Made by a program: the position numbers and the translations under genes. Under the pieces are notes generated by a model that did no database searches, was not told the origin of the DNA, and saw only the letters and a program-made list of their open reading frames with translations. Shown here in pieces: positions 1,153 to 45,023 of a stretch of 64,000 nucleotides of DNA (position 1 is the stretch's first letter; each line of letters starts with the position of its first letter). Source of the DNA: Oscillospiraceae bacterium (lineage in GTDB: Bacteria > Bacillota > Clostridia > Oscillospirales > Ruminococcaceae); NCBI GenBank assembly GCA_009784825.1, contig WQXO01000010.1:1-64000 (forward strand). Direction: 5' to 3'.

Positions 1153-3495
1153 TTATAATTTATGTTTTACACGTTCGCTTTCTTCCACACGCTTAGCGTT
1201 GTTAAACCGGTCAATCGTCCCCACTAAATACCCCGTAATCCGTCGAATTCTCTCGAATTTAACCCCGTCATCCTCACTTCGGCGGCACTTAGGGCAAATA
1301 TCGTCAATAACCCCGGTATACCCGCAGATGGAGTCATGGTCAACAGGATGGTTAATCGCACCATACCCCACACCGGACTCTTTCATAAGGCGGATAATCT
1401 TCTCGAACGCCTCAAGGTTATTACCCATGTCACCGTCCATCTCGACATAACTGATATGCCCCGCATTGGATAAAGCGTGATAGGGTGCTTCAATCTTAAT
1501 TTTCTCATAAGCGGTAATGTCGAAATACACAGGAATGTGGAACGAGTTAGTGTAATAATCGTGGTCAGTTACATTCTTAATCTCCCCATAAAGCCGCCTG
1601 TCTATCCGTAAAAATCTACCTGCCAGCCCCTCAGCGGGAGTAGCCAACAGCGTAAAGTTTAAGCCTGTCTTGGCACTTTCCTCATCTAAGCGGGTTCTGA
1701 ACCGTTTAATAATCCGCAGCCCCAGCTCACGTGCCTCCTCGGTTTCGCCGTGGTGTGAGCCTATTAACGAGTTCAAACACTCAGCCAAACCGATATACCC
1801 CATCGCAAGCGTTCCGTGCTTGAGGATTTCACCAATGGTATCCTCCGGACCTAATTTATCAGAATCCATCCAAACACCTTGCCCCATAAGGAACGGGAAG
1901 TTCTTGACTTTTTTCTGGCACTGGATTTTGAAACGATACATCAGCTGGTCAATAACAAGGTTCATCACATCCTCGAGCATTTCAAAAAACCTAACCGTAT
2001 CACCGCCCGCTTTAATGGCTAAACGAGGGAGGTTAACCGAGGTGAAACTCAAGTTCCCCCTACCGCTTACATGGTTGCGTGTCTTATCATAATTGTTTGC
2101 AATAACACGGGTGCGACAGCCCATATACGCCGCTTCACTTTCATAGTCGCCCTCTTTATAGAATTGCAGGTTATACGGTGCATCAAGGAACGAGAAATTT
2201 GGATACAGCCGCTTCGCCGAAACACGGCAGGCAATCTTAAACAAGTCATAGCTTGGGTCTTCCGGGTTATAGTTAATCCCCTCTTTAATTTTAAACACAT
2301 GAATGGGGAAAATCGGCGTCTCAGAATTGCCCAAGCCCCGCTCATTTGCGAGCAGAATATTCTTAATGACCATTCTACCCTCGGGGGAGGTGTCCGTCCC
2401 GTAGTTTATGGAAGAGAAAGGAGTCTGTGCCCCCGCACGGCTGTTCATGGTGTTGAGGTTATGAACCAACGCCTCCATGGCTTGGAAAGTAGCACGGTCA
2501 GTCTCTTTAACAGTTAATTTAGCTGAAAATCCTTGTATTTTTTTAGTAAGAGCGTCATCGCCGCCCATAATTTCTTTCAAGTGGGTGTATTCGGCTTCCT
2601 TATACCCGTTGTTGTCGGCGATAATGGGGTATAACCCGCTTTCCGCCTCGATTTTATTCATATAAGCTTCCACTTTTTCGCCGATTTCATCAAGCTCAAA
2701 GGTATCGGTATACAGTCCAATCCCTCGAACGATATTCTTTTCATATAACTGGCGAAAGGTCTTAGTAACCCCCTCTGCCATTGCATAATCGAAGTTAGGG
2801 ATTGACTGCCCGCCGTGCTGGTCATTCTGGTTAGACTGAATGGCAATACACGCCAAAGCGGAATAACTCCCTATATTATTAGGCTCTCTCAAAAAACCGT
2901 GTCCGGTGGAAAACCCGCCCTTGAACAATTTCTTAATATCAATCTGACAGCAAGTGGTGGTAAGCGTGAAGAAATCCAAATCATGGATATGTATATCGCC
3001 GTTTACATGAGCGCGGGAGTGTTCCGCAGACAGCACATACATTTCATAGAACTGCTTTGCCCCCTCCGAACCATACTTCAGCATAGTCCCCATAGCGGTA
3101 TCACCGTCTATATTGGCGTTCTCCCGCTTAATATCGCAGTCACTCGCCGATTTAAACGTCAAGTCCTCGAAAATCTTCATCAATCGTGTATTCATCTCCC
3201 GAACACGGGTTCTGTCTGCACGATACAGGATATAAGCCTTAGCAGTCTTAGCGTGACCGGTCTCGACAAGAACCTTCTCAACCACGTCTTGAACCTCTTC
3301 CACCGACGGCAGAATGTTGTTCTCGACGAAGTATCTTTCGAGCCGCTCGCAGACTTCCTCCGCTAAACTCATCGCTGTTGCATAGTCGTGACCGCCGACC
3401 GCCCTTGCCGCCTTGTAGATGGCATCGGCAATCTTGTCGATATTAAAGGAAACCTGTCGCCCGTCACGTTTCTGGATTTTTGTAAGCATAGCCAT
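1153..3495 (-). CDS. nrdD: anaerobic ribonucleoside-triphosphate reductase
   Basis: 780 aa; N-terminal ATP-cone-like region, HIHDLDFF, C-terminal zinc Cys motifs and glycyl-radical-like RITGYLVGTIDRFNNAK...ERVKH. Confidence 0.95.
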   Translation of the reverse strand: MAMLTKIQKRDGRQVSFNIDKIADAIYKAARAVGGHDYATAMSLAEEVCERLERYFVENNILPSVEEVQDVVEKVLVETGHAKTAKAYILYRADRTRVREMNTRLMKIFEDLTFKSASDCDIKRENANIDGDTAMGTMLKYGSEGAKQFYEMYVLSAEHSRAHVNGDIHIHDLDFFTLTTTCCQIDIKKLFKGGFSTGHGFLREPNNIGSYSALACIAIQSNQNDQHGGQSIPNFDYAMAEGVTKTFRQLYEKNIVRGIGLYTDTFELDEIGEKVEAYMNKIEAESGLYPIIADNNGYKEAEYTHLKEIMGGDDALTKKIQGFSAKLTVKETDRATFQAMEALVHNLNTMNSRAGAQTPFSSINYGTDTSPEGRMVIKNILLANERGLGNSETPIFPIHVFKIKEGINYNPEDPSYDLFKIACRVSAKRLYPNFSFLDAPYNLQFYKEGDYESEAAYMGCRTRVIANNYDKTRNHVSGRGNLSFTSVNLPRLAIKAGGDTVRFFEMLEDVMNLVIDQLMYRFKIQCQKKVKNFPFLMGQGVWMDSDKLGPEDTIGEILKHGTLAMGYIGLAECLNSLIGSHHGETEEARELGLRIIKRFRTRLDEESAKTGLNFTLLATPAEGLAGRFLRIDRRLYGEIKNVTDHDYYTNSFHIPVYFDITAYEKIKIEAPYHALSNAGHISYVEMDGDMGNNLEAFEKIIRLMKESGVGYGAINHPVDHDSICGYTGVIDDICPKCRRSEDDGVKFERIRRITGYLVGTIDRFNNAKRVEESERVKHKL

Positions 3496-3729
3496 ATTTT
3501 AAACACCTTCACCACATATTGTACTTCTAAGGGACGCACTTAATATTATATAGTGTATTTCCCCGCTTGTCAAGTTATAACTATATAAATTTTTTCTGTT
3601 AAAACTTGGTAATATTCGACAAATTTCTATGTTGAAAATTATGTAACCAAACTGTAACCTAAAAAACGCAACCTTTTAGAACCGTCGTTTGTGTTACTTT
3701 TAACAACATAAATGAATTGAGGTAACACC

Positions 3730-5307
3730 ATGAAAAAGAAAAGTATATTTTCCATTATTTTAGCGGGAGCGCTCGCAATAACAATGTCGTCTTGCTACGG
3801 CTTGGGCGATGCCACTATGAACGAGATGGGCGGTTATGGTTACATGGCAACCTACGCCGATTATTACTACGACGGCGAAGAGGATTGGCGTTATGTTGAG
3901 ATGAACCCTGCCGAAAACTACAACACCGTTACGGAATCGCCGTTCATCAACGCCGCCACTTCTCCGCTTTCGACGTTTTCGGCAAACCCGAACACTGCCG
4001 CCTACAGTAACATGCGTCGGATAATTAACTCAGGCAACGTCCCGCCCGCACAAAGCGTTCGCATAGAGGAATACGTCAACTATTTCAATTATGACTACCC
4101 AACCCCTCAACAGGGAAGCCCCGAACCGTTTTCGATTAATGCAGAGGTGGCAGTCTGCCCGTGGAATCCTGATAATCTTCTTGCAATGGTCGGTATTCAA
4201 GGTGAAAGGTTACAATCAGAGCAGAGAGTTCCCAATAACGTGGTATTTCTGATAGATGTCTCGGGTTCTATGAGCTCCGCCAACAGGCTTCCTTTGGTAA
4301 AGGAATCATTCCTCATGCTGTTAGACCAACTTGACGAAAATGACAGAATCTCAATCGTTACCTATGCCGGGAGCAACAAGGTACTAGCCGATTCCGTTAA
4401 GGGCAGTGACAGGAAAAGCCTTGAGCATATTATCAAGGGCTTATCTGCGGGAGGCTCCACAGGCGGCTCAGCGGGGATTACCGAAGCGTATGCCCTCGCC
4501 CACAAGAACTTCATCGAGGGCGGGAATAATCGCATAATTTTAGCCACCGACGGCGATTTTAATGTCGGATTAAGCAGTGTTGCTGATATTATCCCGTTAG
4601 TTCAGGAACAAAAGGAAAAAGGCGTGTTTATTACTGTCCTCGGATACGGCATGGGCAACCTCAACGACCATATGTTAGAGGAAATCGCAAAACAAGGGAG
4701 CGGCAACTACGCCTATATTGATACAATCGAGGAGGCGCAGAAATTCTTGGTTGACCAGTTCGATTCCACCATGTATGTAATCGCAAAGGACTTGAAGCTG
4801 CAAGTCGAGTTCAACCCTGCCGTCGTCAAGGAATACCGCCTAATCGGTTATGACAACCGCCGCCTTAATAACGAGGATTTCAACGACGATAAGAAGGACG
4901 GCGGCGACATAGGTGCAGGCTTCACGGTAACTGCGTTTTATGAATTAGTTCTGCATGACGGTGAAAGCAACAGCAGTGTTGATGAGTTAATATACCAAAC
5001 CGCCGAGTTCACGGGGAGCAGCGATTATATGAACATCAAGGTACGCTATAAAGCACCCTCAGGCGGCGAAAGCAGTCTTGTTCAAAAAACAATCACGGAA
5101 GAGTTTTTCACCCAAAACCCGTCCGATAATTTCAAATGGGCTTCCGCCGTTGCAGAATTCGGACTAATTCTGAGGAATTCCGATTACAAAGGTAACGCCG
5201 ATATTAACAGTGTAATCGAAAGAGCGGAAAACTGCCGAGGAGATAATTACGGACTTCGTTCGCAGTTCATAGAATTAGCAAAAAAGTATAAGCAAATTAT
5301 AAATTAA
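3730..5307 (+). CDS. VWA-domain lipoprotein (YfbK-like, DUF3520 type)
   Basis: Lipobox-like signal (ITMSSC), VRIEEYVNYFNYDYP region, MIDAS DVSGSMSS. Confidence 0.9.
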   Translation: MKKKSIFSIILAGALAITMSSCYGLGDATMNEMGGYGYMATYADYYYDGEEDWRYVEMNPAENYNTVTESPFINAATSPLSTFSANPNTAAYSNMRRIINSGNVPPAQSVRIEEYVNYFNYDYPTPQQGSPEPFSINAEVAVCPWNPDNLLAMVGIQGERLQSEQRVPNNVVFLIDVSGSMSSANRLPLVKESFLMLLDQLDENDRISIVTYAGSNKVLADSVKGSDRKSLEHIIKGLSAGGSTGGSAGITEAYALAHKNFIEGGNNRIILATDGDFNVGLSSVADIIPLVQEQKEKGVFITVLGYGMGNLNDHMLEEIAKQGSGNYAYIDTIEEAQKFLVDQFDSTMYVIAKDLKLQVEFNPAVVKEYRLIGYDNRRLNNEDFNDDKKDGGDIGAGFTVTAFYELVLHDGESNSSVDELIYQTAEFTGSSDYMNIKVRYKAPSGGESSLVQKTITEEFFTQNPSDNFKWASAVAEFGLILRNSDYKGNADINSVIERAENCRGDNYGLRSQFIELAKKYKQIIN

Positions 5308-5312
5308 CGTAA

Positions 5313-5352
5313 TTGACAAGTTTACCCCGTTATGGTACAATCATAACGGGGT
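5313..5352 (+). promoter_or_regulatory. thyA-folA promoter with overlapping palindromic operator-like site
   Basis: TTGACA (5313-5318), 17-nt spacer, TACAAT (5336-5341); perfect 11-bp inverted repeat ACCCCGTTATG/CATAACGGGGT spanning the -10. Confidence 0.65.
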
Positions 5353-5361
5353 GATTTAATT

Positions 5362-6192
5362 ATGAGCAAGGCAGATTTAACTTTTATAAATAACTGCAGG
5401 GACATTTTAAACAACGGGTTTTGGGACACGGGACACAACGTCCGCCCGAAATGGGACGATGGCTCACCGGCACATACCATTAAGAAATTCGGGGTCATAA
5501 ACCGCTATGACTTATCCGAGGAATTTCCCGCACTTACTTTGAGAAAGCTGGCGTTTAAGAACTGCATTGACGAAATTCTGTGGATATGGCAGAAAAAATC
5601 CAACAACGTCAAGGACTTAAGCTCACGCATATGGGATTCATGGACGGACAAGAACGGCAGTATCGGGAAAGCCTACGGTTATCAGTTGTCAATCAAGCAC
5701 AAATATTCCGAGGGAGAATTTGACCAGGTTGACAGGGTGCTGTTTTCCTTGAAGAACGACCCGTTATCCCGCAGAATTATCACTAATATATACAACCACG
5801 CCGACTTACACGAAATGGGACTCTACCCGTGCGTCTACAGCCTTACACTAAATGTAACGGGCGATACCCTTAACGGAATTCTCAACCAGCGTTCGGGGGA
5901 TTTTTTAGTCGCAAACAACTGGAACGTCTGCCAATACGCAATCCTGCTTCACATGTTCGCACAATCGTGTAATCTGCGTGTGGGCGAATTAGTTCACGTA
6001 ATCGCCGACGCACATATTTATGACAGGCATATCCCCGTTTTAGAAACACTGATTTCTAAATCGCCCCTCCCCGCCCCTAAGCTGAAAATCAACCCCGACG
6101 TTACCGATTTTTATAAATTCACGGTTGACGATTTTACTTTAGAGGATTATCAAACCCACGAGTTTAAGGAAAGAATTCCGGTGGCTGTATGA
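5362..6192 (+). CDS. thyA: thymidylate synthase
   Basis: ThyA motifs: LYPCVYSLTLNV, LNQRSGDFLVANNWNV, HVIADAHIYDRHI. Confidence 0.93.
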   Translation: MSKADLTFINNCRDILNNGFWDTGHNVRPKWDDGSPAHTIKKFGVINRYDLSEEFPALTLRKLAFKNCIDEILWIWQKKSNNVKDLSSRIWDSWTDKNGSIGKAYGYQLSIKHKYSEGEFDQVDRVLFSLKNDPLSRRIITNIYNHADLHEMGLYPCVYSLTLNVTGDTLNGILNQRSGDFLVANNWNVCQYAILLHMFAQSCNLRVGELVHVIADAHIYDRHIPVLETLISKSPLPAPKLKINPDVTDFYKFTVDDFTLEDYQTHEFKERIPVAV

Positions 6193-6683
6193 ATATAATT
6201 GTAGCAGTAGACAGTAATTGGGGAATAGGCTGTGACAATAAACTATTGTATAATATTCCTGCCGACATGCAGCATTTTAAGCGGCTCACCGACGGCAAAA
6301 TCGTAGTAATGGGCAAGAACACACTGCTGTCCTTGCCGAATTCCAAGCCGCTCAAAAACCGGATAAATATCGTCTTATCTAACAGCGTTACCGAAATCGA
6401 AAATGCAATCGTGTGCAACTCAATTGAGCAATTGCTTAAAACCGTAAAACAGTACAATTCTGATGACGTTTTCGTAATCGGCGGGCAGATTGTTTATGAA
6501 GAATTGTTGGACTATTGCAGCTACGCCTATATCACAAAAATCCACACCGCATTACCCGCCGACCGTTTCTTCCCGAATATCGACAATAAAGCAAACTGGG
6601 AATTAGTTAATAAATCGGCAGTACAGGCTCACGGTGAATTAGAATATACGTTTTGCGAGTATCGAAATCTTTCGGTAAAATAG
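6189..6683 (+). CDS. folA: dihydrofolate reductase
   Basis: IIVAVDSNWGIGCDNKLLYNIPADMQHFKRLTDGKIVVMGKNT; overlaps thyA stop. Confidence 0.95.
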   Translation: MNIIVAVDSNWGIGCDNKLLYNIPADMQHFKRLTDGKIVVMGKNTLLSLPNSKPLKNRINIVLSNSVTEIENAIVCNSIEQLLKTVKQYNSDDVFVIGGQIVYEELLDYCSYAYITKIHTALPADRFFPNIDNKANWELVNKSAVQAHGELEYTFCEYRNLSVK

Positions 6684-6732
6684 CACTCTCATAAAGCGTG
6701 CTTCACAAAGGTCTATCGAACAATGATTTTAT

Positions 6733-6761
6733 TTGACTTTGTGTGGTGATTGTGGTATAAT
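6733..6761 (+). promoter_or_regulatory. sigma-70-type promoter
   Basis: TTGACT, 17-nt spacer, TATAAT upstream of the 87-aa ORF. Confidence 0.6.
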
Positions 6762-6781
6762 GGATAAAAATGTGATAGGAG

Positions 6782-7045
6782 TTGATGAATATGTCAAGCC
6801 GTGATTATGCAAGAACACAGATTGATACTTTGCCGGACAGTATAATCGAAAAAGTTATTGAGTATATCTCTTTTCAAAAATTCAACCACGGTATGTATGA
6901 TAGCGATACCGATTATTTAACTTCTGTACCCGGAATGGTTGATAAAATCAAATCGGGAATGAACACGCCGCTTTCTGAGTGTGTGCCGTTGTCCGAGGTA
7001 TGGGACATTGTCAAGGTTACAAGTATGTGGACTCATTATGAGTAA
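6782..7045 (+). CDS. small antitoxin-like protein, no adjacent toxin
   Basis: 87 aa with TPLSECVPLSEVWDIV tail resembling small TA antitoxins. Confidence 0.45.
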   Translation: MMNMSSRDYARTQIDTLPDSIIEKVIEYISFQKFNHGMYDSDTDYLTSVPGMVDKIKSGMNTPLSECVPLSEVWDIVKVTSMWTHYE

Positions 7046-7048
7046 TCC

Positions 7049-8365
7049 TCACTGCAGCATAAACACGTTATAAATCACTTTAATCGCTTCCTCGAAATCC
7101 TCTTCCTTAATCCCGATTATAATATTAAGCTCCGACGAACCCTGGTCAATCATTCTAATATTAATCTTAGCGTGGGACAGTGCCGCAAACATTCTTGCCG
7201 CCGTTCCCCGTTTTTCTTTCATTCCCCGACCGACTACCGCAATCATCGCCAAGCCCCGCTCCGCCTCAATATGATTGGGGCGGGCGACCTCGTTAATTCG
7301 CTCAAGAAGTCCCGGGTGTTTATTAATCTCGTCGGTGCATAAAACAATACTAAGCGTGTCAATCCCCGACGGAATATGCTCGAAGTTAATCCCCTCTGCT
7401 TCAAACAAGGTGAGGATTCTCCTCAAAAACCCGATTTCGTTATTCATCTCGTCCTTTTCCAGGGAAATAACGCTGAAGTTTTTCCTGCCTGCAATCCCGG
7501 TAATAACAGTCGTGGTTTCTTCCTCGGTGGCATTCGGAACAATCATAGTCCCGGGAGCTAATGGGTCATTGGTGTTTTTGATATTTATAGGAATCCCCGC
7601 TGTTCGTACAGGGAATATCGCCTCCTCATGAAGCACGGTTGCTCCCATGTAAGAAAGCTCACGCAGCTCCCGATAGGTAATAACTTTGATTACCTCGGGG
7701 TTATCGACAATTCTCGGGTCTGCCGCAAGGAATCCGGAAACATCAGTCCAGTTTTCGTATAAGTCTGCCTTGACCGCCCTTGCGATAATCGAACCGGTGA
7801 AGTCGCTCCCCCCACGTGAGAAGGTTTTAATCTCACCGTTCGGCTTTGCCCCGTAGAACCCCGGTATCACCGCATAACGGGTTTTACTCAATATCGAGGT
7901 CAGAGAAGCATTAGTCAAATCCACATCGAAATCACCATTAGCACGGAACTTGACCCCGTCTGCCGCATCTATGAACGGGAAACCCAGATACTTCGCAAGA
8001 ATAATGCCGTTGAGGTATTCCCCCCTGCTTGCCGCATAATCCCGCCCTGCATTGTTTTTGAAATTATTTATAATTGTTTCGTATTCCTCGTTCAATGAAA
8101 GGTTCAACCCTAAATCCTTAGCTATCGCACCGAAACGCTCCGCAATCGGCTTAAATTCCTTTTGCGGGTCTGCACCCTCGGCTACAGCATCATAACAGCT
8201 GTAAAGCATATCGGTGACTTTGATGTCCGCACCGAAGCGTTTCCCCGGAGCGGAGGGGACAATGTAACGCCGCTTGCCGTCGGCTTTAATTATTTCTGCG
8301 ACTTTCTTGAATTGCTGTGCGTCAGCGAGGGACGACCCCCCGAATTTTACGACTGTCTTAGCCAT
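7049..8365 (-). CDS. lysC: aspartate kinase
   Basis: VVKFGGSSLAD, FSRGGSDFTGSIIARA, tandem ACT regions. Confidence 0.93.
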   Translation of the reverse strand: MAKTVVKFGGSSLADAQQFKKVAEIIKADGKRRYIVPSAPGKRFGADIKVTDMLYSCYDAVAEGADPQKEFKPIAERFGAIAKDLGLNLSLNEEYETIINNFKNNAGRDYAASRGEYLNGIILAKYLGFPFIDAADGVKFRANGDFDVDLTNASLTSILSKTRYAVIPGFYGAKPNGEIKTFSRGGSDFTGSIIARAVKADLYENWTDVSGFLAADPRIVDNPEVIKVITYRELRELSYMGATVLHEEAIFPVRTAGIPINIKNTNDPLAPGTMIVPNATEEETTTVITGIAGRKNFSVISLEKDEMNNEIGFLRRILTLFEAEGINFEHIPSGIDTLSIVLCTDEINKHPGLLERINEVARPNHIEAERGLAMIAVVGRGMKEKRGTAARMFAALSHAKINIRMIDQGSSELNIIIGIKEEDFEEAIKVIYNVFMLQ

Positions 8366-8411
8366 AGCTGTAGTTCTCCTGTTTTATATAGTTTAATATT
8401 TTCAACTTATT

Positions 8412-9524
8412 TTATGCCATCTGATAATCAAAGGTACTGAACGCCCACTTGTACAACATCTCGTGGTCGATATAGGTATAATGATGTGCCTCTTCACCTT
8501 CCAAGCGTTCAGCTCTCAGGTGCCACGGTGCGCCTAATGACACAATGATATAGTCTAAGCTGTTGTGTGTGGCTAATGAAACCAAATTCGTGAACCCCGG
8601 CATGGGATTAACAGTGTCGAACACCCCCGGCGAAGTTTCAAGGTAATACTCGGGCATGCCCCCGGTTTTAATGCCTTTCACAAACTCACAATAATAGGGA
8701 TTGTCGGAGCTTATGTTATTTATCATCATATTTGTGTTAGTGAGGGGATAACCGTGCGGTTCATCGGAATTTCCCGGCATATTATAAACCTGAGTTGCAC
8801 ATATTTCTGAAAATATCGGATAACGCTCATAAGCGAACTGCGTAATCAAATACATATCATGGACAGTAGAATAGTTAAGAGTTTCATACAACCCGTGCGG
8901 ATTTGTAAAGTTGGTATTTAAACAACCGAGTTCAGCCGCCTTATCGTTCATCATTTTTATAAACACGTCAAAAGCGTTAAAGTTCTTGCCGCCGACGTTA
9001 TAGGCTAATATATTCGCCGCATAATTGCTGGAGTACAGTAAAAGTGCATACAGGCAATCCCGATAGGTCAGGTTAGTTTGATTAGGCTGAATACCTGCGG
9101 CAATTCCCTCAAGATATTTATTGGGAAAATTCAAGTTCCAAAATTCATCGGCACACAGCGAGGAAATGGCCACAATCTCGTCGAGGTCAGCAACTTTTTC
9201 AAGGACTATCAGGGCAGTCATAATCTTGGCAGTGGAGGCGGGCGAAAGCGGTTCATGCTCGTTTTCTGCGTAAATGACAATGCCGGTATTAAGATTGACA
9301 ATATAAACTGCTTGACTGTATATTTCAAATTCGGGAGTAACTAAAAACGATTCTTTTACAGGTGGCAATTCAATCGGTTCTGTAGATTCGGCAAGAGACT
9401 CCTCTGTAGTTATAGCTCTTGTTGTTTCATCATAATCATTATAGTTTTCGCTGCGGCTCTCGCAACCCAAAAGCCCGCATAATAATACAGCACAAACAAC
9501 TAACGCAATCAGTTTTTTTAACAT
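8412..9524 (-). CDS. D-alanyl-D-alanine carboxypeptidase (S11 family)
   Basis: SxxK (STAK), SSN-containing YSSNYAAN, KTG (GIKTGG) motifs; lipoprotein-type N-terminus LLGC. Confidence 0.88.
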   Translation of the reverse strand: MLKKLIALVVCAVLLCGLLGCESRSENYNDYDETTRAITTEESLAESTEPIELPPVKESFLVTPEFEIYSQAVYIVNLNTGIVIYAENEHEPLSPASTAKIMTALIVLEKVADLDEIVAISSLCADEFWNLNFPNKYLEGIAAGIQPNQTNLTYRDCLYALLLYSSNYAANILAYNVGGKNFNAFDVFIKMMNDKAAELGCLNTNFTNPHGLYETLNYSTVHDMYLITQFAYERYPIFSEICATQVYNMPGNSDEPHGYPLTNTNMMINNISSDNPYYCEFVKGIKTGGMPEYYLETSPGVFDTVNPMPGFTNLVSLATHNSLDYIIVSLGAPWHLRAERLEGEEAHHYTYIDHEMLYKWAFSTFDYQMA

Positions 9525-9671
9525 AGCTGTAGTTCTCCTGTTTTTGTTTTGTTATATTATACATTATCGGTGATTAATTGTCAAATATTACTTTACGTGT
9601 TATAATGGTATTTGAAAGAACATGTAATAATACTATTTTTTTGCTGTCTTTACAAGTGAAGCTTCAAATAT

Positions 9672-10241
9672 ATGGAGGTAGAGATAATGACCGATATGGA
9701 AATTCTCGATTTATATCGGGAACGCTCTGAATCTGCTATCACAGAAACGGCAAAACAGTATAATTCATACTGTATTGCAATCGCAATGAATATTCTGCAC
9801 AATCGAGAGGATGCTGAGGAATGTGTTAATGATACATATTTTAAAGCATGGAACTCTATTCCCCCTCAATGCCCTGTGAAATTTTCATCGTTTCTCGGCA
9901 GAATAACACGCAACTTATCTATTAACAAATACAATGCACGGAAAGCCAAAAAACGCAACAGTGGCGAAAACGCTTTATTGTTGAGCGAATTGGAAACCTG
10001 CCTCCCCTCTGCCGATAATGTAGAAAAGAAAATAGACGAGGCAATTTTAGGGGAAACGATTGACCGTTTTCTGTCATCGGTAACAAGAAACGAAAGGGTG
10101 TTTTTTGTGCGGAGGTATTGGTACAACGATTCCGTTGCCGATATAGCGAAACGGTTTTCTGTAGGTGAAAGTAAGGTTGCGGTCAGTCTTTTCCGAACCC
10201 GTAAAAAACTGAAAGCTTATCTTGAGAAAGAGGGTATATAA
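9672..10241 (+). CDS. ECF-type RNA polymerase sigma factor
   Basis: Region 2 NREDAEECVNDTYFKAWNSIPP and region 4 VADIAKRFSVGESKVAVSLFRTRKKLKAYL. Confidence 0.9.
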   Translation: MEVEIMTDMEILDLYRERSESAITETAKQYNSYCIAIAMNILHNREDAEECVNDTYFKAWNSIPPQCPVKFSSFLGRITRNLSINKYNARKAKKRNSGENALLLSELETCLPSADNVEKKIDEAILGETIDRFLSSVTRNERVFFVRRYWYNDSVADIAKRFSVGESKVAVSLFRTRKKLKAYLEKEGI

Positions 10242-11500
10242 TGAACAGTGAAGTTATGTATAACGCAATCGGATATATAAGCGATGAAAAAATCGCCGAA
10301 GCCGATACTGATTTACTTGAACAAACATCGACTATAAAAAAATGGCATGTGTTTATACCGCTTACCGCCGCTTGTCTTATTATTGCTATAGCTGTATCAA
10401 TGCTTTCGCTTAATAAGCCTGAACCTTATGAGCCTGAACCCCGTGAATATGATTTATCGAATACTTCTTTAATCGGATTACCCGTTAGTTTTTCCAATCT
10501 TTCAGAACCCTACCCGCCGTATGAGGCAAGTCTTGTTTCGGGCTTTGAAACATGGAGTGAGGTTTTCAAGCATAATCCACCGCAAGCATTTGTCTTTGTC
10601 CGTGTTCTAAATACAGAGCTGGAACAAAATGATAAAAATGATAGAAATACAAGTCACATAAGTGAATGGCAAGTTTCAACCTTGCATATTATTTCAACAA
10701 TATGGAGCGACGATATTGAATTACCCGAAATTATAACAATAAGACAAGCTGTTTATGATAATGATATATATTACATTTCTCACAATAAAAAACCGGTCAT
10801 GAATAATTTATTGCGTAAAGACGGAGTTTATATGCTGCCGTTAAGAATTTTTGAAGAAGACCAATACGGTATCTCTTCCAGAACATTTGAAGTTGATGAT
10901 GAGGGGAAAGCTTGGGCACGCATGCGTTATTGGGATAGCTGGAGAAATAATGCTCCTCCCGAATTTGCATTTTTTAACGGGAAAGACGCAAACATTCTCG
11001 CAGAATTTATAGTTGAGTTAATGTCAGACGATTTCTTTTTTGATACCATCAGCACCCCATTCGGAAAGGAAATAACACACTATAACAGCATAATAGCACA
11101 GGTTACTGTTTTATCCGAAACACAGAATATATCTTTGTTTATAGACAATATTTTATATGCACCGGGAGAATTTCATGACCTGTCAGTAATAAGAAATTTA
11201 AAAATCGGGGAAACAATTACCCGTGTTGAAGCACCTACACCAAACACATATGAACACGGGGAACAATATTTAGTGTTTATTTACTCGTTCGCCCCTTTTC
11301 GTGATGTCGATATTTATCAATTTGCTTTTGCAAAAATAAATGACGACGGCACTATAACCCCGGTTAAAGATGAGCATAGGCGAGCTAATTATTTCGCCGA
11401 ATATGACGGTTACACGATTGAAGAAATTACAGACTTAATTGAACAAATTCAAACATGGTATGATAATTATTTTGGGAGCGAAATATTATTTTGGGAATAA
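10241..11500 (+). CDS. putative single-TM anti-sigma factor with large uncharacterised ectodomain
   Basis: Overlaps the sigma stop; short cytosolic N-terminus, one TM segment (FIPLTAACLIIAIAVSML), long extracytoplasmic region. Confidence 0.65.
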   Translation: MNSEVMYNAIGYISDEKIAEADTDLLEQTSTIKKWHVFIPLTAACLIIAIAVSMLSLNKPEPYEPEPREYDLSNTSLIGLPVSFSNLSEPYPPYEASLVSGFETWSEVFKHNPPQAFVFVRVLNTELEQNDKNDRNTSHISEWQVSTLHIISTIWSDDIELPEIITIRQAVYDNDIYYISHNKKPVMNNLLRKDGVYMLPLRIFEEDQYGISSRTFEVDDEGKAWARMRYWDSWRNNAPPEFAFFNGKDANILAEFIVELMSDDFFFDTISTPFGKEITHYNSIIAQVTVLSETQNISLFIDNILYAPGEFHDLSVIRNLKIGETITRVEAPTPNTYEHGEQYLVFIYSFAPFRDVDIYQFAFAKINDDGTITPVKDEHRRANYFAEYDGYTIEEITDLIEQIQTWYDNYFGSEILFWE

Positions 11501-35978: not shown

Positions 35979-38456
35979 ATGATAGAATTTAATGACTTCA
36001 CCGAGAAAGCCAACAAAGCACTTAATGCCGCCGTGAAAACTGCTGCCGGGTTAGGGCATATCTATATCGGAAGTGAACATATACTCTGCGGGCTGCTGTC
36101 TGAGGAAAGCGGTGTCGCCGCCCTCGCTTTGTCTAAACAAGGCATTGTGTTAAATGAGATTACTCGAAAAATCGAGGTGGTTGTCGGGCGGGGAATACCT
36201 ACCCGTTTGACCGCTAACGATTTTACTCCGAGAAGTAAGCGAATTTTAGAACATGCACTCACTGAGGCACGTTCGCAAAGGCATAATTTTGTGGGGACTG
36301 AGCATGTCCTTAAAGCGATTATCCGTGATTCGGAATGTTATGCTGTTCTTATGCTGAAAGAAATGGGGGTTAATCTATCCTCGCTTTATAACGATTGCGG
36401 GGGAGGCGATGACAAAAGTAAGAACGTGGCATTAAACGATTCCTCTGACAGTGATTTCGCCACTACCTCCACCGACGGTAAAAAAACGGTTAAGACGGCT
36501 TTGGGAAAGTATTGCCGTGACTTAACCGAGTTGGCGAAGCAAAATAAGATTGACCCTGTTGTTGACCGGGATAATGAGATTGAGCGTGTAATACAGGTGC
36601 TTATGCGTAGGAGGAAAAATAACCCTTGCCTTATCGGGGAGAGCGGTGTGGGGAAAACCGCCATCGCTGAGGGGCTGGCTCTTAAAATAGCACAGGGGGT
36701 TGTTCCCGAGAATATAAAAAATAAGCGGATTATGATGCTCGATTTACCGTCTATGCTTGCGGGGGCGAAATATAGGGGGGACTTCGAGGAGCGGATTAAG
36801 AATGCTCTTGACGAAGCTGTCAATGACGGGAATGTGATTTTGTTCATTGATGAAACCCACTCAATTATCGGGGCGGGGGCGGCTGAGGGGGCGATTGACG
36901 CCGCTAATATTCTTAAGCCCATTTTGGCACGGGGAGAGATTAGATTAATAGGGGCGACGACGATTGAGGAGTATCGCCGTTATATCGAAAAGGATGCGGC
37001 ATTGGAACGCAGGTTCCAGCCCATTACTGTGGAGGAGCCTGACGAAAATGCGGCAGTGCGTATTCTAACAGGATTGCGGGACAAATATGAAGCACATCAT
37101 AAGGTGAAAATCACCGACGATGCGGTAAAGGCTTCGGTGGAGCTGTCGGCACGGTATATCAATGACCGCTTTTTACCGGATAAGGCAATTGATTTAATAG
37201 ATGAGGCGGCGGCGTTGTTAAGGCTACGCAAATACACCGCTCCCCCCGATATGCAGGAATTGGAAAATAAGCTTAAACGATTGACCGATGACAAGGCGAG
37301 TGCGATTAATTCGCAGGATTTTGAGGCGGCGGCGGCATTACGTGACGAGGAGCGGGAAATTACCGAAAAATTAAACAGTTATAAGGTAAGCATGGGGATT
37401 GCCTCAAAGAAAGCGGGCTTAAAAAGTAAAGAGGTTTATGGGGAGATAACCTCGGAAAATATCGCCGAGTTGGTTTCTAAGCAGACGGGGATTCCATTAG
37501 CAAGGCTGACACTTGACGAATCGGCGAAGTTATCGGATATGGAGGGTGAGCTTCAAGCAAAGGTAATCGGGCAGGACGAGGCGGTTTCGGCGGTTTCCCG
37601 TGCTATAAAAAGAAGCAGAGCAGGGTTCAAAAACCCTGCAAGACCAATCGGCAGTTTTATTTTCTTAGGGCCCACCGGTGTGGGGAAAACCGAGTTATGC
37701 AAAAGCTTGGCGGAGAACCTTTTCGGGGATAAGTCGGCGTTAATTCGGTTTGACATGTCCGAGTATATGGAAAAGCACACGGTTTCTAAGTTAATCGGGT
37801 CGCCGCCCGGATACGTCGGTTATGAGGAGGGAGGGCGGTTAACCGAGAAGGTGCGTCGTAAGCCTTATTCGGTGGTATTATTCGATGAGATAGAAAAGGC
37901 TCACCCCGATGTGTATAATATATTTTTGCAAATAATGGAGGACGGCATTCTCACCGCTTCGGACGGGCGGAGGGTGAATTTCAAAAACGCTGTTATTATT
38001 ATGACATCGAATGTCGGTGCGTCGCTTATTACCGAGAATAAACGGGCGTTGGGGTTCGCTGATAATAGTGATAATGACGATTCGAGCGTAAACAGTAGGG
38101 TTATGGAGGAGCTGAAAAAGACGTTTAAGCCCGAGTTCCTTAATCGGGTTGACGATATTATTGTGTTCGGGAAGTTATCAGAGGAGAAAATAAGTGACAT
38201 TTGTCGGTTATTGCTCGATGAGGTGGTCACACGAGCTATGGCGTTGGGGGTGACTGTTTCATTCACCGATGAAGCGGTAAGTGAGCTTGTTAAATTAGGG
38301 TATGACAAGATGTATGGGGCACGTCCGTTAAAGCGGGTCATTACTTCAAAAATAGAGGATATGCTTTCCACGAAGCTACTCGGCGGGGAGATTAAGAAAA
38401 ACGACGTTATTCAATGCACAATTCACAATGCACAATTCACAATTAATAAATTATAA
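35979..38456 (+). CDS. clpC: ATP-dependent Clp protease ATP-binding subunit
   Basis: Clp N-domain, two AAA+ modules (GESGVGKTA, GPTGVGKTE), UVR-like linker. Confidence 0.95.
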   Translation: MIEFNDFTEKANKALNAAVKTAAGLGHIYIGSEHILCGLLSEESGVAALALSKQGIVLNEITRKIEVVVGRGIPTRLTANDFTPRSKRILEHALTEARSQRHNFVGTEHVLKAIIRDSECYAVLMLKEMGVNLSSLYNDCGGGDDKSKNVALNDSSDSDFATTSTDGKKTVKTALGKYCRDLTELAKQNKIDPVVDRDNEIERVIQVLMRRRKNNPCLIGESGVGKTAIAEGLALKIAQGVVPENIKNKRIMMLDLPSMLAGAKYRGDFEERIKNALDEAVNDGNVILFIDETHSIIGAGAAEGAIDAANILKPILARGEIRLIGATTIEEYRRYIEKDAALERRFQPITVEEPDENAAVRILTGLRDKYEAHHKVKITDDAVKASVELSARYINDRFLPDKAIDLIDEAAALLRLRKYTAPPDMQELENKLKRLTDDKASAINSQDFEAAAALRDEEREITEKLNSYKVSMGIASKKAGLKSKEVYGEITSENIAELVSKQTGIPLARLTLDESAKLSDMEGELQAKVIGQDEAVSAVSRAIKRSRAGFKNPARPIGSFIFLGPTGVGKTELCKSLAENLFGDKSALIRFDMSEYMEKHTVSKLIGSPPGYVGYEEGGRLTEKVRRKPYSVVLFDEIEKAHPDVYNIFLQIMEDGILTASDGRRVNFKNAVIIMTSNVGASLITENKRALGFADNSDNDDSSVNSRVMEELKKTFKPEFLNRVDDIIVFGKLSEEKISDICRLLLDEVVTRAMALGVTVSFTDEAVSELVKLGYDKMYGARPLKRVITSKIEDMLSTKLLGGEIKKNDVIQCTIHNAQFTINKL
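38412..38453. repeat. AATTG/CATTG short repeat at 3' end of clpC
   Basis: CAATGCACAATTCACAATGCACAATTCACAATTAATAAATTA; encodes QCTIHNAQFTINKL. Confidence 0.75.
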
Positions 38457-38461
38457 AGGCG

Positions 38462-38740
38462 GTGTATTATATGCAGTCAAGGTCAATAGAAGAGGTTTTA
38501 GCGGAGTTACGAAAGAAACATGATGTTGAAAAACAAGAAACAGAAACAGTATCTGTGCAGACATCGCAGAGGTTCGCAGAGTCGGTGCGTCGGGGTCGCC
38601 GTACTCTGCGGTTCGGGCATGTAGTAATCGTTCAAGCAGTTACTGCTGTGATTATTGTTTTAGTTGTGTTAACGGCAAGGTTTGCAAATCCGGAGTTTTT
38701 CGAGATTATTCAGACGTTTTTACGGGAGAATGTCTTTTGA
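38462..38740 (+). CDS. small single-TM hypothetical protein
   Basis: Translationally close to clpC and the M50 protease gene; one hydrophobic segment. Confidence 0.55.
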   Translation: MYYMQSRSIEEVLAELRKKHDVEKQETETVSVQTSQRFAESVRRGRRTLRFGHVVIVQAVTAVIIVLVVLTARFANPEFFEIIQTFLRENVF

Positions 38741-39303
38741 TACATTTACATATTAGAAATACGGCAGTTAATTTAGATTTTACGTTTTTTGCCGTGATTG
38801 CGTTATTTTTGGCGTTTGACGTTACGGGGTTTGGGATATTAAGCGTATTGGTCTGCCTTATTCATGAGGCGGGGCATTTGTTCGCTATGCTCATTCGGGG
38901 GGAGAAGGTAGAGTCGATTGTGTTTCGAGGGGGCGGGATTAAAATAATCCCGGAAATTAAGGGCGGGGATTCGATATTCGTGACAGCGGCAGGCAGTGCG
39001 GTAAATATCGGGTTGTTTTTCCTTTTGTATTTCACCTTGCCGAAAACCGACATTTATCCGGTTATGTTCGCTGTTTTGAACCTTGTTATCGGGTTGTTTA
39101 ATCTGCTGCCTGTCGGGTGCTTGGACGGTAAGCGATTAGTCGAGAATATCCTGCCTTATAAGGTGGCTCGGATTGTGGAAATAATTGCATTAGCTGTGAT
39201 ATTAGTCGGGGTGGCTGCTGCGTTTGTGTTCGGCTCGGTGAATTTTACATTATTAATTGTGATAATTTATATAATGGTTATTGATATTTTTATAAAAGTG
39301 TGA
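38737..39303 (+). CDS. M50-family site-2 metalloprotease
   Basis: HExxH in LIHEAGHLFAM and conserved LDGKRL. Confidence 0.8.
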   Translation: MIHLHIRNTAVNLDFTFFAVIALFLAFDVTGFGILSVLVCLIHEAGHLFAMLIRGEKVESIVFRGGGIKIIPEIKGGDSIFVTAAGSAVNIGLFFLLYFTLPKTDIYPVMFAVLNLVIGLFNLLPVGCLDGKRLVENILPYKVARIVEIIALAVILVGVAAAFVFGSVNFTLLIVIIYIMVIDIFIKV

Positions 39304-40095: not shown

Positions 40096-40101
40096 TGAAA
40101 C

Positions 40102-40146
40102 AAAAAAGTGCTTTCGTTTGTATGTATATACAGAAAGTACTTTTTT
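40102..40146. terminator. terminator-like hairpin
   Basis: AAAAAAGTGCTTTC ... GAAAGTACTTTTTT. Confidence 0.6.
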
Positions 40147-40171
40147 ATCATTAATTTACGGAGGTTGTACC

Positions 40172-40669
40172 GTGACAGAGTATACGTTTCGAGAGAAGCT
40201 CACACAGTATAAAAACACCGTGTTCCGCCTCGCTGTCGGTTATACCAAGAATATACAGGACGCCGAGGATATAACACAGGATGTGTTTTTGAAATTATAC
40301 TGTAACGAGAAAGAGTTCGAGTCTGACGAGCACGAAAAGGCGTGGCTTATTCGTGTTACGGTCAACCTATGTAAAAATCATCTTAAGACAAGCTGGATGA
40401 GGCTGCGAAGCCCACAGTCTGAATATGACAGCAATACTGCGTTTTATGACGAGAGCAATATAGAAATGATGGAAATGCTTTCTAAGGTTAAACCGGATTA
40501 TCGTGTACTGTTGTATCTGTTTTACTATGAACAATATAAAACATATGAGATTGCCAAGATACTTAAACGAAATGAGAATACGGTGAGGACACAGCTAAAA
40601 CGTGCGAGAGAGCAATTGAGATTGCTTATGCTTGAGGAAAGGGGCGAGTTGTATGAATACAAGGTATGA
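40172..40669 (+). CDS. ECF-type RNA polymerase sigma factor
   Basis: NIQDAEDITQDVFLKLY, region 4 TYEIAKILKRNENTVRTQLKRAREQL; GTG start after GGAGG preferred to ORF-track start 40118, which lies in a hairpin. Confidence 0.9.
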   Translation: MTEYTFREKLTQYKNTVFRLAVGYTKNIQDAEDITQDVFLKLYCNEKEFESDEHEKAWLIRVTVNLCKNHLKTSWMRLRSPQSEYDSNTAFYDESNIEMMEMLSKVKPDYRVLLYLFYYEQYKTYEIAKILKRNENTVRTQLKRAREQLRLLMLEERGELYEYKV

Positions 40670-42179
40670 CAGCTTTTATAACAGCCTTGCTTTAGATGAT
40701 AGGAAAACAGAAGAAATCATCAGAAGGGCGGTTAATATGAAACAGAAAAATGAGCGGATTAAAGGATTTGCACCGTTAATGGCGTTCGCCTCAATTGCAC
40801 TTGTTGTGACATTGGGGTTTGGGATTTATTTTACGGCGTTCAGTGAATTTGGCGTGTTCGGGCAGAGGGACGGGGAGGACGATGACATTCCCGCAATTGT
40901 AAGCGACGATGAACCTGATATTGAGGATTTTCTACCCCCTCATTCCGACCCGACAGGCAAGATTATTATAAACATCAACACTTTTTCCGATGAATTGCGT
41001 GATAATATTCTCCGGCAGTTCTTGGCGGAAAATCCCGAGTTCTTTGAAAAGTATTATTTGCAATTTAATGTAATCGTTGAGGACAGCAAGTATATCATTG
41101 ACGTAAACGACAGGTTAAATCAAGGGGCGGCTGATATTTTCTTAATGGATATTAACCATATTCAATCGATTATTAATAATCCGGGAATTGCGGCATTAAG
41201 TGACTTGGGTATGAATATAAACGAGGACGATTATTTTAATTATACCCTCGATTTAATGAGGGTGAATGACGAATTAATGGGGCTACCGGTGCATACTTGC
41301 CCGGGGACGGTGTTCTATCGTGCGGATTATGCGAGTGAATATCTCGGAATTAATTCACCCGAGGAGATGACTGCTGCAATTAGCACGTGGGACGGGTTAA
41401 TTGAAACGGCGAAACGGCTTCATGAGAATTCCGGCGGGGAAATCAGCATGGTGTACAGCGTTGATGAGTTTATCCAAAGCATGTTAGCGGCGAGAACCGC
41501 TCCGTGGATTAAAGACGGCGAGCTTGTTCCCGAGGAGGAGCTTCTAAGACAATGTTATGACGTGGCAAGGGAGTTATACGATAACGGGTTGATTGCAAGC
41601 TATGAGGGGAGATGGTCGGTTTCTTGGTTTGATGAAATGCGTGACGGCGGGGTGTTTATGTATTTCGGGACGACGTGGTTCCACGATTATGTGATTAAAC
41701 ACACAGCATGCGGTGATGACCATCATGTAGTTTATAATGACCCTGAGCATGATTGCACCGGTAACGGTTCCTATGGATTATGGGCGATGGCATTACCTCC
41801 CGAGCCGTTCTTCTGGGGTGGGACGTTTGTTGGGGTTTCTAAAACTGCGGTGAATGACCCCGAAAAAAATCAAGCGATAGCACAGCTAATTGAATGGATT
41901 AGCAATAATTCGGCAAGTGCAGGGACGGATTTTTTCGCTTTTTCTAATAAATCAGACACTGACAGGGTTAATGAAAGCGAGTTCTTGGGCGGGCAGAACG
42001 CTTATACCGTGTTCGCACAAGCGGCGGAGAATATAGAAAATCTTGTTATTTTCGATGAGTATGACAATCGGTTCGTCGAGGTTGTTCTTGAGGCGATTGC
42101 GGAGGGGTGGAGCTTTGAGGAGATGATGGAGAGGTTTAATATGATAGTGGAGTATGGTCACGATATATTGTTAACGTAG
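40653..42179 (+). CDS. predicted transmembrane anti-sigma factor fused to an extracytoplasmic solute-binding-protein-like domain
   Basis: ATG overlaps sigma stop; short cytosolic N-terminus, single TM (MAFASIALVVTLGFGIYFTAF), then SBP-like domain (ADIFLMDINHIQ, LMGLPVHTCPGTVFYRADYASEYLGI, FFWGGTFVGVSKTAVNDPEKNQAIAQLIEWI). Confidence 0.75.
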   Translation: MNTRYDSFYNSLALDDRKTEEIIRRAVNMKQKNERIKGFAPLMAFASIALVVTLGFGIYFTAFSEFGVFGQRDGEDDDIPAIVSDDEPDIEDFLPPHSDPTGKIIININTFSDELRDNILRQFLAENPEFFEKYYLQFNVIVEDSKYIIDVNDRLNQGAADIFLMDINHIQSIINNPGIAALSDLGMNINEDDYFNYTLDLMRVNDELMGLPVHTCPGTVFYRADYASEYLGINSPEEMTAAISTWDGLIETAKRLHENSGGEISMVYSVDEFIQSMLAARTAPWIKDGELVPEEELLRQCYDVARELYDNGLIASYEGRWSVSWFDEMRDGGVFMYFGTTWFHDYVIKHTACGDDHHVVYNDPEHDCTGNGSYGLWAMALPPEPFFWGGTFVGVSKTAVNDPEKNQAIAQLIEWISNNSASAGTDFFAFSNKSDTDRVNESEFLGGQNAYTVFAQAAENIENLVIFDEYDNRFVEVVLEAIAEGWSFEEMMERFNMIVEYGHDILLT

Positions 42180-42228: not shown

Positions 42229-42255
42229 GGGCGGACAGGGTCGTCCGCCTCTACG
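42229..42255. repeat. CCCCTAC-family palindrome
   Basis: GGGCGGACAGGGTCGTCCGCCTCTACG. Confidence 0.65.
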
Positions 42256-42991: not shown

Positions 42992-44527
42992 TCAGAAATT
43001 ACCGATGAATTCCAGAGCTTTTTCTTCACCTATGAAGAACATGCTGTCTTCACCGATTTTTAGCCAACCGTGGCTGTTTACCGTAAACTCAGTATCATTA
43101 TCAACTGTAAAGGTGACGGCGATACTATATTCCTCTTGGAAGAACCAGTAGTGATATTCTAACCGTAATGGTGTTTTGTCGGACAGCAGTTTTTCTACTG
43201 CGGTATCGAATACTTCGTTTGTGTGTACTGCGAGGTATTCGCCGAGTGTGGTTTTCATTAATGTTAAGGGTTGGTCGATTTCGACTTTGAATATTTTGGG
43301 AATTATAACGGGGTATAACTCCTGTACCATACCGTCGTAGTGGACGATTATCTCCTGTCCGGCAAAGTATGAGCCGTCTGCCGAGAGGTGTGCTAATGTT
43401 CCGTTGCCGCCGTATAGGTCGTTGGTGAATACTAAGAGGGAGTTATTGTTTGTTGACATTACGGTTGCTCGGAAGGAATGGTGTTCTTGGACTTCGCTCG
43501 CTATCGTATATTCTTTTGAATCAATTATTACCGATTGCACTTTTTCTCCGATTAATTCTTCTTTGTGAATAAAATGAATTACAAGTCCGACAATTTCACC
43601 GTTTTCAGCAACTACATGCAAAAAATGAATTGAAGTGAAGGAGTTTGAAATCTTAACCTTATCAGTGAATGTGACTTCGTACCTTTCACGGCTACACAAA
43701 GCCGAATTAATCTCCTCATTAAATTCGTCAAAGCTATAATAAATCAACACTGAATAATCCGAAAAACTTATTTTTTCTAATGCTACGGGAAAACCTTTTA
43801 CAATTGTTTCTTCGTTGATGATGGTTTCGTTCTGCTTTGCGGGAATGTAATCAGCGGTGAAAGTTGCGGTGAATATACCCTCCATGACCGGCTCGAAGCG
43901 TTCAAAAAACGGGACCTCGGTTTTCGACTCGTATCGGTAAACGCCTATTCTTGTAAATTCGAGCACAAATTCTTCGCCGATAACATCAGTTGTCATAATT
44001 TTTATATTGAAATACAGTATGCCGTCTTTAACATAACGGTCTGCGTCTTTGCTTAACGGATTAATGTCGGAGTGTATTAATTCATTTGAATGACTAAGAT
44101 ATGCGGGATAGTAAGTGTCGTATTTAAGATGCTCCAATAATAAATAATTCTCATTTTCATCGAATATATAATCGTTCGTCGGTTTCATCTCAAATAAAAC
44201 ATTGAAATAATGCTCGTCACCGTGTATTTCTAATAGGCGTACATCTAAATCAAGAGTATTTTCATGGATTGTGAAATTAGTCGATTTTTCCGCTTCGGTG
44301 CGGGGGTCGATGGCGGGGACGGCTTCTCTGAAGGTAATCCCCCACAGTAACGCTGTTCCTGCAATCAGAGTAAGACATGCCGCCGATAATACTGCGATGT
44401 TGGCTTTCCACGGTTTTTTAACGGGGACGCGAGCATTAGCGTTATCGAGCATACGGTATTTCGCCCTTTCGTCGGGTTCGATTACATCAAACGCATTTAT
44501 AATTTTTTCATTTTTCATAATAATCAT
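42992..44527 (-). CDS. DUF4179-like putative anti-sigma factor
   Basis: Overlaps the ECF sigma gene; N-terminal cytosolic stretch, one TM, large ectodomain. Confidence 0.75.
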   Translation of the reverse strand: MIIMKNEKIINAFDVIEPDERAKYRMLDNANARVPVKKPWKANIAVLSAACLTLIAGTALLWGITFREAVPAIDPRTEAEKSTNFTIHENTLDLDVRLLEIHGDEHYFNVLFEMKPTNDYIFDENENYLLLEHLKYDTYYPAYLSHSNELIHSDINPLSKDADRYVKDGILYFNIKIMTTDVIGEEFVLEFTRIGVYRYESKTEVPFFERFEPVMEGIFTATFTADYIPAKQNETIINEETIVKGFPVALEKISFSDYSVLIYYSFDEFNEEINSALCSRERYEVTFTDKVKISNSFTSIHFLHVVAENGEIVGLVIHFIHKEELIGEKVQSVIIDSKEYTIASEVQEHHSFRATVMSTNNNSLLVFTNDLYGGNGTLAHLSADGSYFAGQEIIVHYDGMVQELYPVIIPKIFKVEIDQPLTLMKTTLGEYLAVHTNEVFDTAVEKLLSDKTPLRLEYHYWFFQEEYSIAVTFTVDNDTEFTVNSHGWLKIGEDSMFFIGEEKALEFIGNF

Positions 44528-45023
44528 CTCCTAATATAGTTTTCAATAGCTTTCTTGCTTCGCTTAGGTAATTGCGGATTGTAGATTCCGGCTTTTTCAG
44601 GATTTTTGCGACTTCGGCGGATTTATACCCCTCATAATAATACAGCCAGACTGTCAGCTTATACTTTTCCGGGAGGGAGAGAACCGCCTCTAATACATCA
44701 CGGTTGTCGCTGTCCGTATGACGTAATATGTTTGAGTAGGTGGAAATGTCCTCGTCACGCCTGTGCCGCTTTTTCAAAAAGTCCTTGCAGACGTTTCCCG
44801 CTGTTCTGATTAGCCACGCTTTCTCGTGTTCGGTGTCGTTGAACACGGGAGATTTTTTGATTAAACGGTAAAAGGTTTCGGAAACGCTGTCCTCGGTGTC
44901 TGCCGGGTTCTTCATAAAAGTGAAGCAGACACGATAGATTGTATTAACCTGTCGGTTGTATATTTCGGTAATCTCGTTATGCGAGCTCAACATAAGGAAT
45001 TCACCGCCTTTCATTAGTAACAC
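44508..45023 (-). CDS. ECF-type RNA polymerase sigma factor
   Basis: NPADTEDSVSETFYRLIKKSP, SAEVAKILKKPESTIRNYLSEARKLL. Confidence 0.9.
   Translation of the reverse strand: MLLMKGGEFLMLSSHNEITEIYNRQVNTIYRVCFTFMKNPADTEDSVSETFYRLIKKSPVFNDTEHEKAWLIRTAGNVCKDFLKKRHRRDEDISTYSNILRHTDSDNRDVLEAVLSLPEKYKLTVWLYYYEGYKSAEVAKILKKPESTIRNYLSEARKLLKTILGDDYYEK

Follow-up and report, generated by a model that had tools for sequence, protein, structure and literature searches.

The window, the whole 64,000-nucleotide stretch of DNA analysed here, belongs to a 2.18-Mb draft genome of 32 contigs and contains a gene for an ECF sigma factor that runs into the gene for a 508-residue membrane protein (Table 1). A ribosome-binding site, GGAGG (40160-40164), lies 7 nt upstream of the GTG start codon of the sigma factor gene, and its stop codon (40667-40669) falls inside the partner gene. 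An earlier sequence-only reading had described the two overlapping genes, and the ORF calls reproduced the open reading frames, their coordinates and the overlap, which amounts to 17 nt. The sigma factor scores above the cut-offs for PF04542 (Sigma70_r2, 51.3 bits), PF08281 (r4_2, 49.7 bits) and the NCBIfam sigma70-ECF model. It has regions 2 and 4 only and falls in the size class of about 160-200 residues, as expected for an ECF sigma factor, and with 75.2 bits it lies below the cut-off of 190 for the NCBIfam SigV equivalog model. The hairpin that follows the partner gene makes the pair look like a closed two-gene operon.

Table 1. Features of the sigma factor/partner locus and of the upstream protease genes, in window coordinates.
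Feature	Position	Strand	Details or basis
ClpC gene, upstream of the pair	35979-38456	+	
M50-type gene (site-2-protease-like, M50B-like), upstream of the pair	38737-39303	+	
ECF-type promoter-like element, TGAAAC-N18-GTATGTATA	40096..40128	+	Same element in L075 and L076
ECF sigma factor gene	40172..40669	+	GTG start codon; 165 aa; sigma regions 2 and 4
Partner gene (predicted anti-sigma factor, single TM pass, SBP ectodomain)	40653..42179	+	508 aa; ATG start at 40653
N-terminal cytosolic segment (residues 1-41), predicted to bind the sigma factor	40653..40775	+	Partner-profile score; sigma co-variation
TM helix, about residues 42-62	40776..40838	+	Hydropathy; helix in AlphaFold model
Acidic unstructured linker, about residues 63-99	40839..40949	+	Low pLDDT; composition
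Two-lobed sugar SBP domain, residues 100-508	40950..42176	+	PF13416; AlphaFold; Foldseek
Intrinsic-terminator-like hairpin, 3' of the anti-sigma gene	42229..42250	+	Consensus match only

No metabolic genes adjoin the pair. Directly beyond it, on the opposite strand, is a gene for a HicB-like antitoxin (PF15919, 42263-42655), beside which no HicA toxin was identified. The window contains two more pairs of an ECF sigma factor and a transmembrane (TM) partner: one at 42995-45023 on the reverse strand, the partner of which gives only a sub-threshold trace of DUF4179 in Pfam, and one at 9672-11497 on the forward strand, the partner of which has no Pfam match.

Topology of the partner

The 508-residue partner has the layout of a membrane anti-sigma factor, with a gene overlapping that of the sigma factor, a cytosolic N-terminus and a TM helix. 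There is a single hydrophobic segment, from around residue 42, where the Kyte-Doolittle mean reaches its maximum of 2.15, in keeping with the short cytosolic N-terminus and single TM helix of the sequence-only reading. The acidic linker that it had placed after the helix is borne out by composition and by pLDDT values below 60, which the TM helix shares in the AlphaFold model. Likewise, the protein is without a lipobox, as no cysteine occurs before residue 216. No ABC permease gene is found near the pair in the window, as had been noted, and none of the eight BPD_transp_1 domains in the genome lies near the partner gene or its two solute-binding protein (SBP) paralogues. The partner therefore has neither the signal peptide or lipobox nor the cognate permease nearby that characterise the SBP of an ABC importer.

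The ectodomain is a sugar solute-binding protein

The ectodomain matches PF13416 (SBP_bac_8) with 50.3 bits, well above the cut-off of 27, while the match to PF01547 is weak. A phmmer search against the PDB retrieved GltA (7vfq, E 2e-6), CebE (8bfy) and a trehalose/maltose-binding protein (1eu8). In an AlphaFold model built with 41 homologues a confident domain starts at about residue 100, with pLDDT mostly 85-98 per ten-residue block and weaker stretches within it, for example at residues 351-370 and 421-440. The structure prediction and Foldseek comparison that the sequence-only reading had proposed as a check returned the two-lobed SBP fold, the top match in the PDB being the cellotriose-binding protein CebE (8bfy; E 1e-18, probability 1.00, TM-score by target 0.70) and nearly all of the best 50 being sugar SBPs. 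All 60 homologues retrieved at genus and family level align with the ectodomain only. Nearly all of these have lipoprotein-type N-termini with a signal peptide and lipobox, and the closest four inspected (L151, L153, L154 and L155) sit with two MalF/MalG-type permeases. The profile match above the cut-off, the model with its structural neighbours and the homology to importer SBPs confirm that the ectodomain is a bona fide two-lobed sugar SBP, which had been suspected from its likeness to sugar ABC binding proteins.

The partner shares with CebE and GltA a common fold, homology and conserved tryptophans. W246, W285, W321, W342, W388 and G389, invariant across the SBP homologues, are all kept. 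At other positions that are near-invariant in transporter SBPs the partner departs from the consensus (G206D, Q214H, A215T and Q240T), and it may therefore bind a different ligand or have altered in its ability to bind one. Since the tryptophans are retained but these residues are altered, the pocket is probably functional with a changed specificity. The difference is in context: CebE and GltA are secreted or lipid-anchored parts of transporters, whereas in the partner a TM helix connects the SBP to a cytosolic tail.

The two orphan SBP paralogues are encoded elsewhere in the genome (L005:8-1738 on C30 and L006:4751-8651 on C13), one behind a TPR region and the other adjoining a TPR-DUF6273 protein. 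No permease genes were found near them in the stretches read, and they are possibly sensory rather than involved in transport. Also in this genome (L309/L272; C14, ~3426-11214) is an apparent operon behind the element TGAAAC-N18-GTTTACATA, in which several lipoprotein genes are followed by a MalF/MalG-type permease pair; by eye, two of the lipoproteins, which have no Pfam match, resemble fusions of a propeller and an SBP.

The N-terminus belongs to a shuffled sigma/anti-sigma chassis

The genome contains at least 21 related ECF sigma factors (21 matches at E<0.001), most of them with a similarly built partner. Among related sigma factors of the genus and those from a scan of GTDB genomes, nearly all precede a gene for a single-TM product with a short cytosolic stretch, mostly of 35-75 residues. 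When a profile was trained on the N-termini of 58 other partners in a leave-one-out design, the N-terminus of the partner scored 22.9 bits (E 1.7e-5), compared with 10.8 for the best of 2000 shuffles, and all 1227 background ORFs scored lower. It still ranked first, at 19.3 bits, after the two nearest relatives were taken out of the profile. Across 57 pairs the similarity of the N-termini follows that of the sigma factors (Mantel r 0.64, p 0.0005), the corresponding correlation for the ectodomains being much weaker (r 0.24).

The closest sigma factors, L075 (G045) and L076 (G005), group with the sigma factor of the pair in one clade (support 100/99), and their partners carry the closest N-termini, for example MANRFNDLYDKLTLGDEKTAEILRKAKEMKQKN vs MNTRYDSFYNSLALDDRKTEEIIRRAVNMKQKN in the 508-residue partner. 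The ectodomains of these two partners are an Ig-like Big_14 domain and an M23 peptidase, and DUF5050, Beta_propel, LRR and DUF4179 domains are found by Pfam on others. That the closest sigma factors and N-termini go with such unlike ectodomains indicates that the ectodomain is exchanged on a conserved sigma/anti-sigma core. The pair is part of a genus-wide, shuffled ECF/anti-sigma chassis. By Pfam the partner has no class I/zinc-finger (ZAS) or other anti-sigma domain and no RsgI domain, while RsgI_M was matched by two partners in the wider survey. The assignment of the N-terminus as an anti-sigma segment, and with it the earlier proposal that the partner is a membrane anti-sigma factor, is supported by the leave-one-out profile, the co-variation with the sigma factor, the operon structure and the precedent of Tt-TolB discussed below; residues 1-41 would be expected to bind the sigma factor.

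An M23 peptidase ectodomain occurs on the anti-sigma chassis in 7 of 43 partners scanned (L076, L138 and L144 among them). Elsewhere in the genome (C9, C1 and C5) are single ORFs in which an ECF sigma factor is joined with a hydrophobic segment and an ectodomain (L116:1617-2873 and 2958-4754; L115:1275-2975; L117:1190-3349), placing sensor and sigma factor within one polypeptide. The fused ectodomains are a C-type lectin (PF00059, 55.6 bits), LRRs in two cases and DUF6273.

Distribution and a second SBP-bearing pair

A search for orthologues with both the N-terminus and the SBP gave no convincing match reaching the N-terminus in 71 genus, 398 family and 394 order genomes; the exact architecture is a singleton, present in one genome. 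The sigma scan of GTDB species genomes gave 80 loci with a TM partner beside nearly every sigma factor and no Pfam SBP domain among these partners. By Pfam an SBP ectodomain is found in 1 of the 123 partners scanned, plus one that Pfam missed (L111), so SBP ectodomains are rare. Searching the partners with SBP profiles of the 508-residue-protein type and of the L111 type gave no further cases. The former profile missed L111 and is therefore narrow, so that distant SBPs may be overlooked. The survey for ECF sigma factors paired with TM-SBP proteins, which had also been proposed, thus yielded one independent further case.

L111:3962-5494 (G011, another species) is the partner of a different sigma factor. 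Its SBP ectodomain is 55-58% identical to lipoprotein SBPs adjoining GH5-cellulase-type genes (the GH5 identity being confirmed by Pfam for one gene), and its N-terminal 60-90 residues match those of DUF5050-type partners at 37-41%. The best match by both phmmer and Foldseek is the arabino-oligosaccharide-binding protein AbnE (6rjy); its structural model carries lower confidence (mean pLDDT 71.5). In the sigma tree L111 falls among DUF5050-type pairs, and an AU test rejects the grouping of the two SBP-bearing pairs (p 0.003). By the tree position and this test, L111 acquired its SBP independently of the 508-residue partner, so that SBPs have been captured at least twice.

A promoter-like element upstream of the sigma factor

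An element TGAAAC-N18-GTATGTATAT starts 76 bp upstream of the sigma start codon, and L075 and L076 keep it at an equal distance from theirs. The pattern AAC-N18-GTVT is present upstream of 44 of 136 sigma factors, compared with 5.05 expected and a maximum of 9 in 100 shuffles, though these regions come from related sigma factors and the draws are not independent. The enrichment peaks only at a spacer of 18. The TGAAAC-N18-GTAT element thus matches what autoregulation by an ECF sigma factor would look like.

The exact pattern TGAAAC-N18-GTMTNTATA occurs at four sites in the genome, one being the sigma factor's own and the other three lying before lipoprotein genes. Those three have spacer letters in common with each other and not with the sigma factor's own promoter, and another sigma factor, L073, has a similar flank; on these grounds they were not assigned to the regulon. 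Allowing two mismatches gave 30 forward and 17 reverse sites genome-wide, hardly above the control (13 and 29). Near the ends of C1 and C7 in the same genome are tandem lipoprotein genes without a Pfam match (L275 and L277), with an exact TGAAAC-N18-GTATTTATA within ~40 nt upstream; they are probably under the control of some ECF sigma factor.

Discussion

The closest parallel in organisation is Tt-RpoE1/Tt-TolB of Thermoanaerobacter tengcongensis, in which the sigma gene is likewise followed at once by that of a single-pass partner (PMC3397946). Tt-TolB has ~39 cytosolic residues, a TM helix at 39-61 and an ectodomain at 62-645; residues 1-39 bind Tt-RpoE1, which Tt-TolB inhibits and which transcribes its own gene (PMC3397946). 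The ectodomain is, however, of the TolB type rather than an SBP, and the Tt-RpoE1 promoter is tGTTAC-N16-CGTC rather than TGAAAC-N18-GTAT. SigV/RsiV and SigP/RsiP also involve Gram-positive ECF anti-sigma factors, and the ectodomain of RsiV senses directly, but the ectodomains of RsiV and RsiP are unrelated to the SBP of the partner. Systems with carbohydrate-directed ectodomains are known as well. Sigma24C is an ECF-type sigma factor. In Clostridium thermocellum sigma24C/Rsi24C (Cthe_1470/1471) has a membrane anti-sigma factor with a carbohydrate-active ectodomain that is proposed to sense extracellular polysaccharide and is GH5-like, not a two-lobed SBP (PMC3990059, citing Nataf 2010 and Bahari 2011). 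SigI/RsgI of the same species combines a short cytosolic segment and one TM helix with varied carbohydrate-binding ectodomains (PMC12203970, PMC6056542). SigI, though, has no region 4 and does not count among the ECF sigma factors, and RsgI has a self-cleaving periplasmic domain, whereas the partner has no RsgI Pfam domain. In BvgS-type kinases a Venus-flytrap fold serves as the ectodomain of a transmembrane receptor (PMC5829827), with a histidine kinase rather than a sigma factor as the output.

ECF/anti-sigma pairs with extracytoplasmic sensors, carbohydrate modules included, and Venus-flytrap ectodomains in kinases are therefore already known. We found no description of a sugar SBP on an ECF anti-sigma factor in the literature searched, mostly open papers, and such absence is not proof. 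The sequence-only reading had regarded the architecture as uncharacterised, which stands insofar as no published SBP case was found, but the pair is less isolated than was supposed since many ectodomains share its chassis.

We consider it quite probable that the two genes constitute an ECF sigma/anti-sigma operon that regulates itself. The sigma factor would be sequestered at the membrane by the 41 cytosolic residues at the N-terminus of the partner, and the ectodomain, used as the sensor, would derive from an ABC-importer lipoprotein and bind sugar oligosaccharides. Ligand binding, with domain closure, or ligand release may then alter the exposure of the juxtamembrane linker, the candidate region for site-1 cleavage, to a site-1 protease. 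An RseP-type M50 protease would then cut within the membrane and a Clp protease would remove the N-terminal fragment, freeing the sigma factor to transcribe its own operon and a putative set of target genes. This putative cascade is modelled on RsiP, in which site 1 is cut by signal peptidase before RasP acts (PMC8844934), and on RsgI, which is released through proteolysis by RseP and then Clp (PMC12203970); by analogy with these, release by intramembrane proteolysis is what we would expect. Computational searches show that the genome has both an RseP-type M50 protease gene (G000:C18) and a ClpC gene; they identified neither a protease for site 1 nor a cleavage site. The M50B-like and ClpC genes upstream of the pair were also considered as part of the system. 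They are absent around the related pair L075, so their proximity here was treated as chance.

It is also conceivable that the anti-sigma factor is real and the SBP fold is a scaffold for sensing something other than a sugar, such as a peptide, a cell-wall fragment, a partner permease or another protein, for instance an enzyme resembling lysozyme. RsiV of B. subtilis is a receptor for lysozyme (PMC4183432, PMC5014341), the M23, Ig-like and beta-propeller ectodomains of the chassis suggest envelope or protein signals in some cases, and the altered near-invariant residues would fit a change of this kind. Against this, the conserved tryptophans are retained, the best structural matches are SBPs for sugars, and the independent case, L111, derives from SBPs adjoining GH5-cellulase-type genes, so that we regard a non-sugar signal as unlikely and sugar as the presumptive ligand.

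Two further explanations leave the anti-sigma role aside. The partner could be a membrane-anchored SBP serving a distant ABC importer, the adjacent sigma factor being regulated otherwise, and its clear transporter homology and the three MalF/MalG-type permease pairs elsewhere in the genome would be compatible with this. It is made very improbable by the 41-residue tail, which matches those of other sigma partners and co-varies with the sigma factor, by the gene overlap and the missing lipobox, and by paralogous sigma operons that hold unrelated ectodomains in the same position. Least plausible of all, to the point of being nearly negligible, is an assembly error that linked the N-terminus of an anti-sigma factor to an SBP gene, or a decaying or pseudogene pair. 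The exact protein does occur in one genome only, and that a draft in 32 contigs, but the join is in frame, the 508-residue ORF is intact with its own ribosome-binding site, a promoter element and the sigma overlap, the fold is predicted with high confidence and L111 is an analogous, independent fusion in another species.

We thus lean towards a sugar-gated sigma factor, in which a fused importer-type SBP would act as the receptor that converts ligand binding into transcription. Such SBPs would have joined, on at least two independent occasions, an ECF chassis that shuffles propeller, M23, LRR and Ig-like ectodomains. This suggests that the cell can sense a sugar directly and switch genes on without importing it. 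If true, a small molecule bound outside the cell would act on a dedicated sigma factor through one two-gene module, which would need neither a kinase nor uptake of the ligand. Much is known about which ligands the various sugar SBPs bind, and this would make the module an ECF sensor that is unusually easy to test and to engineer. The pair also shows that closely related sigma factors of one genus can bear quite different sensors.
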